Source of the DNA: Actinomycetota bacterium
GTDB lineage: Bacteria; Actinomycetota; CADDZG01; WHSQ01
Length of the DNA stretch: 41,126 bases
Reading direction: 5' to 3'
Assembly (NCBI GenBank): GCA_013694625.1
Contig: JACDCD010000166.1
Location: forward strand, 1 to 41,126
This document shows positions 8,932-35,966 of the stretch, one piece after another (the first letter of the stretch is position 1; the number at the start of each line of letters is the position of its first letter). The notes under the pieces were generated by a model. The model ran no database searches. It had not been told where the DNA came from and saw nothing but the letters and a program-made list of their open reading frames with translations. A program made the position numbers and the translations under genes.

Positions 8932-9004
8932 TGGCGAGGGGCAGAATCGAACTGCCGACACCGCGATTTTCAGTCGCGTGCTCTACCAACTGAGCTACCT
9001 CGCC
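8932..9004 (-). tRNA. tRNA-Phe (anticodon GAA)
   Basis: A complete cloverleaf reads on the minus strand. The acceptor stem is GGCGAGG/CCTCGCC with discriminator A. The D-arm contains GTAGCTCAGTTGGTAGAGC. The anticodon stem CGCGA/TCGCG encloses the loop CTGAAAA with anticodon GAA. The T-arm has GTTCGATTC. The length is 73 nt and the 3' CCA is not encoded. It is divergent from tRNA-Asp, with 92 nt between their 5' ends. Confidence 0.96.
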
Positions 9005-9096: not shown

Positions 9097-9171
9097 GCCC
9101 CAGTGGAGCAGCTAGGAGTGCTCATCTCCCTGTCAAGGAGAAGGTCGCCAGTTCAAATCTGGTCTGGGGCG
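9097..9171 (+). tRNA. tRNA-Asp (anticodon GTC)
   Basis: The acceptor stem is GCCCCAG/CTGGGGC with discriminator G. The D-stem is GAGC/GCTC. The anticodon stem TCTCC/GGAGA encloses the loop CTGTCAA with anticodon GTC. The T-stem is GCCAG/CTGGT around the loop TTCAAAT. The length is 75 nt and CCA is not encoded. Confidence 0.95.
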
Positions 9172-16648: not shown

Positions 16649-18862
16649 CTACTGCACTGTGTTGTTGACGATGCGGTTCTCTCTTCCGCCATCACACGGA
16701 CTGTAGCCAGAGCATGTGAAAGCACCCGAGTTGATCGAGATGTTGTCGTGAACGTTGTTGCGCTTCATAGTGTTGCTCACGTCCCGGGTCGTGTTTGTCC
16801 CGAGGCATTTGGGCAATGCCATGTTGTGGGACTGCAAAGACATGTTAACGGCGCGCCCCTTGTTGTTCTTGAAGGTGTTGAAGGCGAAGGTTCCATCGTT
16901 TGAATCCGAGACCCTGATCCCGTCGGAGCCGTTCCCTTCAAAGGTGTTGTGGTGGATGTTGATCGAACAGGAGATTTCGTGGAAGTACCCGAAGCGGTCG
17001 TTGAAGCTGAAACGGTTGTTCCATACTTCGGAGTTGACGTTGTTGATGTCGGTCCAGAAGCCGTCTGAGAACCGGCTGTGGTGCATGTAGTTGCCTGTCA
17101 CCTTGAGATTCGTGGTCGAGGCGAACTTTGTGTTGCCGGCGTGCCATGGCCCTCCGTTTGCGGTCCCGAAACCGGCCTGGTTGTTGTAGGCGAACTCGTT
17201 GTTTTCGAGAAGAAGGCCAATGCCGGAGCCGAAAGATCCCATGGTGCCCTGCCAGGCGATGTAGCTGTCGCGTGTGGTAGAGCCGGTCTTCATCCTTGCC
17301 CCGTGAGAATGGCAGCCGAAGATAGTTACGTTGTCTAGCTGAGCGCCGGGGCCGAGGTCCGTACAGTTACCGGCAAACTTCTCCACGCGCACGTTACGGA
17401 GAGTGATTCCAGAGGCTGAGGACTGGATCCCTGCAGATTTGATGTCGGTTAACTCGAGGAGCTGGCCCGCCGGTGTGCGGTTGATGTAAACTTTGTCGGC
17501 AGCGTAGTCGAAGAAGTAGCCCGCGTCCGGAGCACTCCCAAGAGCGGAGAGGCTAGCGTAGGCTCGCATCGGACGGTTGCTGCGGAAGACATCGACATAG
17601 TCGCATGCCCTGGAGTACCCAGGACGTTCACAGGTTGACCCCGACTGCTGCACGGGAGTAAAGATCTGGCCCGACGAGACCCAGTTGGAGCCACTGGCGC
17701 TCCAGTCGGTGACCGTCTTCGCACCACTTATGATCGCGCCGTCCTCGGCTACAAGGGTGTCGCTGGCCCCAGGGGATATGTTGCCGGTGCGGTAGAAACC
17801 CGGTCCGTTGAGGCATACGCTGGACGAGGCATTCAAGGCTGCCTGTATGTTGCCGCCAGGGCTCACGTCCTCGCCTGAGACGCTCGCGCAGTCGATTCCC
17901 GGCTGCTGGCCAACTCCGGCCACGCTGGGCTCGGTGTCACCGTTACCGACACCAACGGGGGGCGGATCAGTCTCGTCGTTGTCGGCCGGGCTGGAGCAGC
18001 CCGGGTCGTCCGGATGGTTGTTCCTGGCGTCGCCGTCATTGTCCAGGCGATCGGAGCACTGCGATGGGTTGGGCGCCTCAGAGTCGTCGGTGGAGCTGTC
18101 ACACCCCTGATCGGCCGGGTAGTCGCTCACCCCGTCGCCGTCGTTGTCCTGACCATCCGAGCACTCGGGCAGGGGACGTTCGATGATCTCCATTGCGGTG
18201 ACGCGCGGTGCTTTGAGCACGCGCTCGAAATTGATGTCGAGGTTGCCGTCACCCGGTGTGACGGAGAAGGACTTCATGGTGCCCTTGTAGCCGCCAACTT
18301 CGGCGAAGGTATCGTAATCGTTCAGGACTTGCTGATTTTCGATGGTGACATCCACTTTTCGACAGCCAACTGACTGACAACCTGAGTAGATCTCGGCAAA
18401 GTAGAGACGCACGTCATAACTTCGGCCGGCTGTGACCGGAAAGTTCGTCTCCAGGTTTCCAAGAGTGGACGGCTTGTAGCGCTCATCCTGGAAGATGGCG
18501 GAATCCACGCCTGCCGGAACCGAGGAGTGGAGCGTGATTGCGCGAGTCGTCGCAGCGATCTTGCTGCCGGTCGAGCCAATGTAAGCCGAAGGAGCGGTGG
18601 CGCTGTCTGCCGTCCACCCTCCCGACGACGTCGAGGGACCACCCGTGTTGATCCTGTACCTGGTCACTCCGGGCCCGCTTGCGGCAGAGGCCGGCGAGGC
18701 ATCGATCACAGACAGGGGCAATGTTGTCAGTACAGAGGACAGAAGGGCGGTCACAAGGGCGGCCGAACGCAACCGTGGCCCCGCGCGCAACCTGCCAATC
18801 GGCGATTCTGCATGCGGCTGCAGGTGATCGCGGTGGAATAGCGAAAGAAATTGGTATGTCAT
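16649..18862 (-). CDS. Secreted malectin-like / Ca-repeat / right-handed beta-helix protein
   Basis: Large extracellular protein of 737 aa. It has a long signal peptide with an arginine-rich n-region, a hydrophobic core at about 35-55 and a likely cleavage after ASPASA. A malectin-like carbohydrate-binding domain follows at about 65-225 (YRINTGGPS...RSYDVRLYFAEIY...INFERVL). Two ~30-residue repeats with the pattern C-D--DNDGD--D-P-D-GC look like Ca-binding type-3 repeats (about 235-300). The C-terminal ~400 residues are a right-handed beta-helix rich in N-N turns. No catalytic residues, LPXTG or membrane anchor are seen, so binding or adhesion is as likely as polysaccharide cleavage. GGAGG lies 8 nt before the ATG. 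It looks less GC-rich than its neighbours. A c-di-GMP riboswitch precedes it. Confidence 0.85.
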   Translation of the reverse strand: MTYQFLSLFHRDHLQPHAESPIGRLRAGPRLRSAALVTALLSSVLTTLPLSVIDASPASAASGPGVTRYRINTGGPSTSSGGWTADSATAPSAYIGSTGSKIAATTRAITLHSSVPAGVDSAIFQDERYKPSTLGNLETNFPVTAGRSYDVRLYFAEIYSGCQSVGCRKVDVTIENQQVLNDYDTFAEVGGYKGTMKSFSVTPGDGNLDINFERVLKAPRVTAMEIIERPLPECSDGQDNDGDGVSDYPADQGCDSSTDDSEAPNPSQCSDRLDNDGDARNNHPDDPGCSSPADNDETDPPPVGVGNGDTEPSVAGVGQQPGIDCASVSGEDVSPGGNIQAALNASSSVCLNGPGFYRTGNISPGASDTLVAEDGAIISGAKTVTDWSASGSNWVSSGQIFTPVQQSGSTCERPGYSRACDYVDVFRSNRPMRAYASLSALGSAPDAGYFFDYAADKVYINRTPAGQLLELTDIKSAGIQSSASGITLRNVRVEKFAGNCTDLGPGAQLDNVTIFGCHSHGARMKTGSTTRDSYIAWQGTMGSFGSGIGLLLENNEFAYNNQAGFGTANGGPWHAGNTKFASTTNLKVTGNYMHHSRFSDGFWTDINNVNSEVWNNRFSFNDRFGYFHEISCSINIHHNTFEGNGSDGIRVSDSNDGTFAFNTFKNNKGRAVNMSLQSHNMALPKCLGTNTTRDVSNTMKRNNVHDNISINSGAFTCSGYSPCDGGRENRIVNNTVQ

Positions 18863-18870
18863 CGGCCTGT

Positions 18871-18875
18871 CCTCC
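18871..18875 (-). promoter_or_regulatory. Ribosome binding site of the secreted protein gene
   Basis: GGAGG eight bases upstream of the ATG at 18862. It lies immediately 3' of the predicted riboswitch. The segment GGAG could pair with CTCC at the 5' edge of the riboswitch (about 18955), which would allow translational control; that pairing is inference. Confidence 0.6.
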
Positions 18876-18960
18876 GTTCGGTGGCTGGGCGGCCTCCCTG
18901 GGGAGGTCCCTGGCTCTGCGTCCCCGTCTCACGACGGGTTTGCCCTTATCGCTGGAGATC
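18876..18960 (-). ncRNA. Cyclic di-GMP-I (GEMM) riboswitch
   Basis: The minus-strand leader of the secreted protein matches the GEMM-I aptamer core. GGGCAAACC (from 18945) runs into the stem CCCGTC/GACGGG closed by a GTGA (GNRA) tetraloop, and then GGGACGCAGAGCC (ending at 18912); the canonical string is GGGACGCAAAGCC. The second arm follows as AGGGACCTCCC-CA-GGGAGG and then CCGCCCAGCC. The receptor sequence usually seen for the GNRA loop (CCTAA-like) is replaced by paired bases, so tertiary docking may differ. This class binds c-di-GMP and often controls surface, motility and biofilm genes, which fits the adhesin-like product. Position directly before the Shine-Dalgarno suggests translational control. 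Confidence 0.75.
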
Positions 18961-19045
18961 TGATTGACCTCTCGCATGTCATCGACCGAAACGGCGATTT
19001 CCTTGAAGGAAGTGTCGGGCGCTCGAGCGCCTTTAGTCTCTGGCG

Positions 19046-35615: not shown

Positions 35616-35966
35616 TCAGCGCTTGACCCGAAAGACGCGATTCAGGATCCCGCCCAGAACGCTCAGGAAGAGGGCCGCCAACACGGCGCCGCCGAAGCCA
35701 TCGATGACAAGGGCATCGGTGAGTTGTGCGGTGATGGTCAGCATCACCGCGTTGATGATCAAACTGAACAATCCGAGTGTCAGGATAGTGAGAGGGAGGG
35801 AGAGCAGGCGCACCAAGGTGCCGAGGACGGCGTTGACGAGGCCGAAGACTGCAGCAACGATCAAGTAGGAGAGGGGCCCGCCGATGATGTCCACACTGTC
35901 GAGCAACTGAGCCGTGACGGCCATGGCTACGGAGAGCACTAGCCACTTCAACAGCAAATAGCGCAA
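35616..35966 (-). CDS. Phage holin family 4 / YvlD-like membrane protein
   Basis: 116-aa protein with four hydrophobic helices: LLLKWLVLSVAMAVTAQLLDSV, GGPLSYLIVAAVFGLVNAVLG, LPLTILTLGLFSLIINAVML and GFGGAVLAALFLSVLGGILN. This is the PF04020 pattern, a chromosomal family named after holins but not tied to phage here. It starts at a TTG with GGGGGG just upstream. Its role is unknown. Confidence 0.87.
   Translation of the reverse strand: MRYLLLKWLVLSVAMAVTAQLLDSVDIIGGPLSYLIVAAVFGLVNAVLGTLVRLLSLPLTILTLGLFSLIINAVMLTITAQLTDALVIDGFGGAVLAALFLSVLGGILNRVFRVKR

Follow-up and report, generated by a model that had tools for sequence, protein, structure and literature searches.

By which signal, and in which direction, does a bacterium of the phylum Actinomycetota control the gene that begins at position 18862 on the minus strand of contig JACDCD010000166.1 (assembly GCA_013694625.1)? 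We analysed the whole stretch of 41,126 nucleotides, hereafter the window, in which a sequence-only reading had placed a cyclic di-GMP class I (c-di-GMP-I) riboswitch at 18860-18960, ahead of a secreted malectin/beta-helix protein. Our best reading, which we hold with reasonable confidence, is that of a c-di-GMP-I translational OFF switch at a WhiG-type promoter, forming a double c-di-GMP lock on a regulon of surface and secreted proteins. Its observed basis comprises the aptamer, comparative pairing, a promoter-like sequence together with its enrichment, and genes for WhiG, an RsiG-like protein and GGDEF proteins; the aptamer class is known and the arrangement is new. The first part of the argument draws on the following features.

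16649..18862, minus strand: regulated gene, encoding a 737-residue protein with an apparent N-terminal signal peptide, a malectin domain and a right-handed beta-helix
18876..18953, minus strand: c-di-GMP-I aptamer (RF03167, 59.8 bits; RF01051, 54.2 bits)
18944 (G20), 18920 (C44), 18917 (A47), 18916 (G48), 18890 (G83) and 18881 (C92), minus strand: pocket bases
18932-18929, minus strand: GUGA loop, with its receptor at 18905-18904 and 18895-18894 (bases checked)

Scanning the whole window with cmscan gave RF03167 (c-di-GMP-I-GGC) as the top-scoring Rfam family at the aptamer site (E 8.5e-12, cut-off 59 bits), and a whole-genome search matched RF01051 (c-di-GMP-I, cut-off 35) at the same place. 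These covariance scores are far beyond chance and both models support the proposed identity: the site is a class I c-di-GMP aptamer, an assignment we regard as practically certain. GGGCAAACC, the CCCGTC/GACGGG stem with its GTGA loop, GGGACGCAGAGCC and the CCTCC/GGAGG stem all lie on the minus strand where they had been reported, as does GGAGG 8 nt ahead of the ATG at 18862. The CCTCC/GGAGG pairing, taken for a second stem, does exist; it is not separate, being P3 of the aptamer with a predicted loop of 4 nt. The site was likewise right and its limits were not, as the aptamer proper occupies 18876-18953 and the entire regulatory unit (promoter, a hairpin that we call P0, aptamer, Shine-Dalgarno sequence and start codon) reaches over ∼19006-18860 of the minus strand. 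Both P0 and the WhiG-type promoter had been overlooked.

The window's genome (98.2% complete, 230 contigs) contains five aptamer copies. Among relatives, RF03167 matched in 38 of 61 genomes with 86 match rows, 85 of which were used (one 57-nt contig-end fragment was omitted), and of 296 genomes sampled phylum-wide 128 had RF01051 matches. The aptamer alignment was limited to distinct copies scoring 50 bits or more and so lost 2 identical rows and 14 of lower score, which left 69. Here the named structure is paired in 83.9% of cells compared with 70.8% in shuffled alignments and has a covariation score of 0.403 compared with 0.164, values that none of 500 shuffles reaches, and cells with changes on both sides number 231 as opposed to 89. 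P2 and P3 carry the covariation signal (88-100% of cells paired).

To describe the pocket we mapped the numbering of Vc2, the Vibrio cholerae type example of RF01051, onto the copies by equal length, a mapping of our own, and took the roles of its pocket and receptor positions from the accessible parts of PMC3764141 and PMC4744006. G20, C22, G32, A35, C44, G45, C46, A47 and G83 are invariant in 69/69 copies, and C92 is C in 65 of them. The window shares with Vc2 the three-helix aptamer, the G20/A47/C92 pocket, the C44-G83 pair and the GNRA loop with its C59-G79 and U60-A78 receptor pairs, which occur together in 34/69 copies. The sequence-only reading had found this receptor not evident and had for that reason suggested a variant subclass; with the receptor pairs present that reason falls and we rejected the suggestion, although a change of A48 to G is nonetheless present in the window. 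As for the Rfam label, the family name GGC presumably refers to such pocket letters, and RF03167 is the best-scoring model, barely above its cut-off; the window has A where its consensus position 47 is G. Because this G47 is found in 0/69 aligned copies, the window's aptamer belongs by its base content with ordinary c-di-GMP-I, which suggests that actinobacterial aptamers with A47 may carry a wrong GGC label in annotations.

The leader around the aptamer holds the parts of a predicted expression platform.

18966..18971, minus strand: 5′ arm of P0, GAGGUC, Shine-Dalgarno-like and predicted to lie near the mRNA 5′ end (minimum free energy (MFE) fold)
18955..18960, minus strand: 3′ arm of P0, GAUCUC (MFE fold and test over copies)
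18954..18957, minus strand: anti-Shine-Dalgarno CUCC, with three bases common to P0 and all four to the P1 extension, in competing pairings
18871..18875, minus strand: Shine-Dalgarno GGAGG, whose GGAG (18875-18872) pairs with 18957-18954 in the P1 extension

That CTCC at the 5′ edge might pair with the Shine-Dalgarno sequence had been supposed from the letters, and the comparison of copies bears this out. Over 85 copies the P1 extension formed by a copy's own arms has −9.61 kcal/mol compared with −7.94 ± 0.25 kcal/mol for swapped arms (0/200 swaps reach the value), and over 67 non-redundant copies −7.63 compared with −6.14 ± 0.28 kcal/mol (0/500). By eye, UCUCC/GGAGG of the window corresponds to CCUCG/CGAGG in the paralogous copy on contig C74, a compensatory change of C-G to G-C. 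Segments with A44-U83, described below, are still counted in the 85-copy and 67-copy tests of the P1 extension, in the P0 swap tests and in the 83-copy promoter tests.

P0 reads GAGGUC-AAUCA-GAUCUC in the window, UGGAGC/GCUCCA in the copy on contig C109 and AGGUC/GACCU in that on C74. We call copies translational when a Shine-Dalgarno sequence and start codon follow right after the aptamer; in the 17 of these with a promoter match 14-36 nt upstream the P0 leader has an MFE of −6.78 compared with −3.50 ± 0.39 for dinucleotide shuffles (0/200), and in the 15 other translational copies it is not above shuffles (37/200). Swapping P0 arms is significant within the family (0/500) and over all 83 copies (1/500), and P0 overlaps the P1 extension by at least 3 nt in 29 of 42 translational representatives. 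Judged from these comparisons, P0 is a feature of the window's family and is not clear phylum-wide. Constrained folds of the window leader give −42.2 kcal/mol for the P0 state, −37.3 kcal/mol with the Shine-Dalgarno sequence masked and −45.9 kcal/mol when unconstrained. As the P0 state is ∼5 kcal/mol better than the masked one, the gene is expected to be ON without ligand and OFF with it, and ligand binding would pay the ∼5 kcal/mol cost of the switch. Taken together, the alignments support a platform in which the upstream CUCC would alternate between the Shine-Dalgarno GGAG (P1 extension, OFF) and P0 (ON), and a translational OFF switch is probable.

Upstream of P0 lies a candidate promoter.

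19003..19006, minus strand: −35 element TCAA (consensus TAAA) of a putative sigma-28/WhiG-type promoter, 9/12 consensus letters together with the −10 element
18979..18986, minus strand: −10 element GTCGATGA (consensus GCCGATAA), with 25 nt between its end and the aptamer

The flagellar/WhiG consensus, TAAA at −35 and GCCGATAA at −10, is that given in the accessible part of PMC8325347. With spacings of 14-17 allowed, the window reaches its 9/12 at spacing 16, and GGTCGAT of the −10 element is preserved in the orthologue on contig C129 of the same-genus genome G001 (87% protein identity). A position weight matrix from 42 sites, with the window's genus excluded from training, scores the site 13.9, which places it second among the 82,176 positions of the window's two strands. 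The sole site above it by this matrix (15.8) lies at 35878 on the plus strand, where there is no Rfam match and no plus-strand open reading frame (ORF) of 150 amino acids closely downstream. Matches of at least 10/12 stand upstream of 27 of 83 copies (four perfect), compared with 0.8 expected from shuffles or 0.6 from control windows; 84 copies are distinct, one with a short upstream region being omitted. Of the 49 copies with a score of 9 or more, 25 have a −10 element that ends 20-28 nt upstream, a position that the window fits. The enrichment recurs in 74 copies from 47 other genomes where, among the matches listed, 39 copies in 31 of the genomes reach at least 10/12 compared with 1.16 expected. 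This set comes from 87 copies at the top of the RF01051 listing outside the first 61 genomes (1 skipped, 9 failing the core pattern, 3 out of position), and some of its genomes share genera or families with the first 61. On this comparative footing a sigma-28/WhiG-type promoter upstream of the aptamer is probable.

A strict form of the promoter pattern has 30 sites in 16 family genomes as opposed to 4 for the reversed pattern, and by coordinates 5/30 lie directly before riboswitches. Ten proteins encoded after other strict sites comprise four with GGDEF domains and one each with PilM, Flp pilin, type IV pilin, HAMP-GAF, DUF1996 and no Pfam match. In the window's genome (G000) such sites stand directly ahead of GGDEF genes at C8:11897-11922 (minus strand) and C196:28891-28917 (plus strand); the enzymes that produce the signal acting on WhiG may in turn be under WhiG control. 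A type IV pilin gene in another genome (L142:1500-1640, G006:C4) has a strict WhiG-type promoter and no riboswitch match in its leader; the coupling of promoter and riboswitch can therefore be lost or gained.

The proteins that such a promoter would require are encoded in the window's genome. A FliA/WhiG factor on contig C58 scores 272 bits, above the curated cut-off, as is likewise the case in 20 of 22 genomes tested; its best match in the PDB is 6pfj_A (named RNA polymerase sigma factor, E 3e-103), 7lq4_A (named WhiG) is matched at E 1.5e-36, and dprA-xerC-like and rpsB-tsf genes (names by eye) lie on either side. An initial RsiG pattern had 6 matches in this genome compared with 4 for a reversed control, and in no match was Ser in frame (by eye). 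Fixing Ser in the pattern and running it over 20 genomes gave the basis for a profile from six relatives that finds an RsiG-like gene on contig C201 (E 1.2e-76) and matches in 35 of 37 genomes, several weak matches being of single-motif length. In the PDB this profile finds chains named RsiG (7lq2_B, 7lq3_B and 7lq4_D, E ∼1e-6) and 6pfj_T, named AmfC (E 5.1e-27), and we take 6pfj to be the Streptomyces RsiG-WhiG complex. The exact E(X)3S(X)2R(X)3Q(X)3D motif occurs in an RsiG-like context in 14/20 genomes (by eye; 11 loci checked in frame). Among the matches listed for the 47 other genomes, an RsiG-like gene is present in 30/31 whose promoter reaches 10/12 and in 12/16 of the rest (p 0.04); many of the RsiG matches are weak, and the four genomes lacking one among the 16 are all of one genus, g118. 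Genome G030, which has no RsiG match, also has no promoter candidate before its riboswitch. GGDEF matches number 18 in the window's genome and are present in 31/31 genomes tested. As Pfam flagellin was found in none of 16 family genomes, a flagellar role of this sigma factor is unlikely in the family.

According to the accessible text of PMC8325347, RsiG carrying c-di-GMP binds WhiG as an anti-sigma factor in Streptomyces and Rubrobacter, and the WhiG set of Rubrobacter contains pilus and c-di-GMP-turnover genes. The system described here resembles that switch in its WhiG and RsiG homologues, in the flagellar-type consensus and in strict sites before GGDEF and pilus genes, as in Rubrobacter. 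It differs in that the promoter feeds a c-di-GMP riboswitch, a word not found in the main text of PMC8325347 as far as that text was accessible.

The regulated protein matches PF11721 (E 2.1e-13) and PF13229 (E 7.4e-12), in agreement with the malectin/beta-helix assignment first made; its signal peptide is apparent by eye, which is how signal peptides and secretion were judged throughout, and a PDB search returned no sequence relative at E 0.001. Behind other copies in the genome lie genes for a nucleotide-sugar dehydrogenase (C109), an Exo_endo_phos protein (C74) and a protein with no Pfam match (C65). By Pfam, genes downstream of copies in relatives encode proteins with a CAP domain, a type IV pilin and a glycosyl hydrolase, and N-termini judged by eye add more of these kinds.

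In the mechanism that we propose the mRNA would begin at the sigma-28/WhiG-type promoter. Without ligand, CUCC (18957-18954) would be held in P0 at the start of the mRNA, leaving the Shine-Dalgarno sequence free and the gene translated. Once c-di-GMP fills the three-way junction P1 would be stabilised, and the extended P1 would take CUCC from P0 and pair it with GGAG, hiding the ribosome-binding site and turning translation OFF. At high c-di-GMP RsiG would also bind WhiG, so that new transcripts would be blocked alongside the translation of existing ones. For this species we infer ligand binding, the direction of switching, dependence on WhiG and c-di-GMP binding by RsiG, and on balance we lean towards such a double lock.

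Several observations weigh against this mechanism, and those on the platform are given here. In the 69-copy alignment the P1 core pairs in 67% of cells and the columns of the P1 extension in 51%, lower values that arise because the register varies among copies. For the 42 translational representatives own arms of the P1 extension are only modestly better than swapped ones (14/500 swaps reach them), as expected since their Shine-Dalgarno sequences resemble each other. The window's own P1 extension has just 4 pairs (−6.7 kcal/mol), beyond mismatched or bulged bases. Replication in other genomes, which drew on 51/60 copies with exact ends, gave 17/300 for the P1 extension and 28/300 for P0 in 20 translational copies. 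Swapping P0 arms has no significant effect within the genus (228/500) or outside the family (161/500); in the window the 43 upstream nt fold with no more stability than shuffles (z −0.05; mean z −0.42 over 85 copies), and the stability of the whole window-leader fold does not differ significantly from shuffles (z −1.51, 17/200).

Further points of this kind bear on the promoter and the pocket, and have to be read together with the alternatives that they favour. The gene may be controlled by the translational OFF switch only, with a promoter that does not depend on WhiG or an RsiG that does not respond to c-di-GMP, and thus no second lock. The window promoter has 3 mismatches and its orthologue's 4 (9/12 and 8/12), only 3/21 copies in the class's other genomes (G016-G023) reach 9/12, leaving 18/21 without a good match, and 15/16 copies of genus g118 fall below 10/12 among the matches listed. 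Moreover, the RsiG of the window's genome carries H in place of Q in each of its two c-di-GMP motifs while E, S, R and D are kept, and may plausibly still bind the ligand. Yet the window promoter sits where the family rule places it, ranks second in the window by the matrix, and belongs to a pattern that is enriched in the other genomes and goes together with RsiG-like genes to the extent described, so that we consider control by the riboswitch without a second lock rather unlikely. A switch of opposite sign, in which the ligand-bound aptamer would free the Shine-Dalgarno sequence, has a precedent in Vc1, a positive-acting c-di-GMP-I element ahead of a secreted protein (PMC4744006, accessible part). 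In the window, however, the Shine-Dalgarno sequence pairs with the strand that extends P1, a helix expected to gain stability from the ligand, and the competing hairpin P0 excludes this pairing, making an ON switch very improbable.

The remaining alternatives turn on the pocket, which in the window keeps G20, A47, C92 and the C44-G83 pair and has G at position 48 (18916). A48, a conserved position that we did not let decide class membership, is A in 66/69 aligned copies and G in 3/69, namely the window, its orthologue and one more copy. This change, together with RF03167 being the best Rfam family if just above its cut-off, could mean that the signal is not c-di-GMP and that the aptamer is a GGC-variant member or senses cyclic GMP-AMP (cGAMP) or belongs to another variant. 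The GGC reading was set aside on base 47, where the window has A as opposed to G in the RF03167 consensus, A47 and G20 being kept in 69/69 copies; the regulated genes and the 18 GGDEF matches also suit c-di-GMP. The cGAMP (GEMM-Ib) riboswitch has A at the G20 position, which we take to be equivalent to its A14, whereas the window has G at 18944, like all 69 copies. A14 is among the ligand-binding bases in the accessible part of PMC6274999. An altered ligand is on these grounds highly unlikely. A48 is also among the key conserved pocket bases (PMC3764141, accessible part), and its replacement could instead have broken ligand binding, leaving a decayed copy and a constitutive gene. The orthologue, at 87% protein identity, retains A48G along with the other pocket bases, however, and in a simulation of the cGAMP riboswitch A42, which we equate with A48, touches the ligand via N3 or O2′, groups that G also has (PMC6274999, accessible part); we give decay very little credence.

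Apart from the copies discussed so far, GEMM-like segments of 78 nt scoring 34-50 bits with RF03167 occur at L100:298-375 and 1781-1858, at L101:762-839, 1823-1900 and 2574-2651, and in L094-L096, L090, L091 and L089. In 11/85 copies such segments have C44-G83 replaced by A44-U83. Most of the A44-U83 segments lie inside or in frame with ORFs encoding a conserved peptide (DKGDLAARPASK..GP..QASGLP), and for this reason we dropped A44-U83 as evidence of a natural compensatory change of the tertiary pair; they may be either a coding look-alike or a dual-coding riboswitch. In L100 a sigma-factor-like gene adjoins them (by eye). At L044:273-900 (contig C102 of the window's genome) a riboswitch precedes the gene of a secreted protein, the signal peptide of which, behind five consecutive T, seems out of frame; the aptamer and its printed flanks are identical in a second genome (L051, G001:C230), and the case may therefore be an artefact of assembly or binning. 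Paired c-di-GMP-I aptamers in the same orientation and 1-3 kb apart occur at L097:367-454 and 1443-1529 (G021:C126), with a CAP-like secreted protein after the second (by eye), and at G016:C59:354073 and 357160. Two divergent tRNA genes (Rfam) at 8932-9004 (minus strand) and 9097-9171 (plus strand) of the window are unrelated to the riboswitch.

Compared with c-di-GMP-I as typified by Vc2, the window's element thus differs in A48G, in a two-sided platform of P0, anti-Shine-Dalgarno and Shine-Dalgarno sequences, and in the WhiG-type promoter directly upstream. A search of the open-access literature, whose coverage is incomplete, found no paper joining WhiG promoters with c-di-GMP riboswitches in the texts accessible. 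For the Actinomycetota at large we lean narrowly towards a general arrangement, in which many c-di-GMP-I riboswitches would sit in the first transcribed nucleotides of WhiG-type promoters and one messenger would act twice, RsiG-WhiG conveying it to transcription and the leader to translation or elongation, the window's family adding a Shine-Dalgarno-mimic hairpin that makes the default ON. With such coupling c-di-GMP would act on a single gene by two independent routes, one through an anti-sigma factor and one through an RNA, both predicted to have the same sign. The coupling would also define a testable regulon of secreted CAP, beta-helix and glycan-active proteins, type IV pilins and a nucleotide-sugar dehydrogenase in Actinomycetota represented here mainly by draft genomes.

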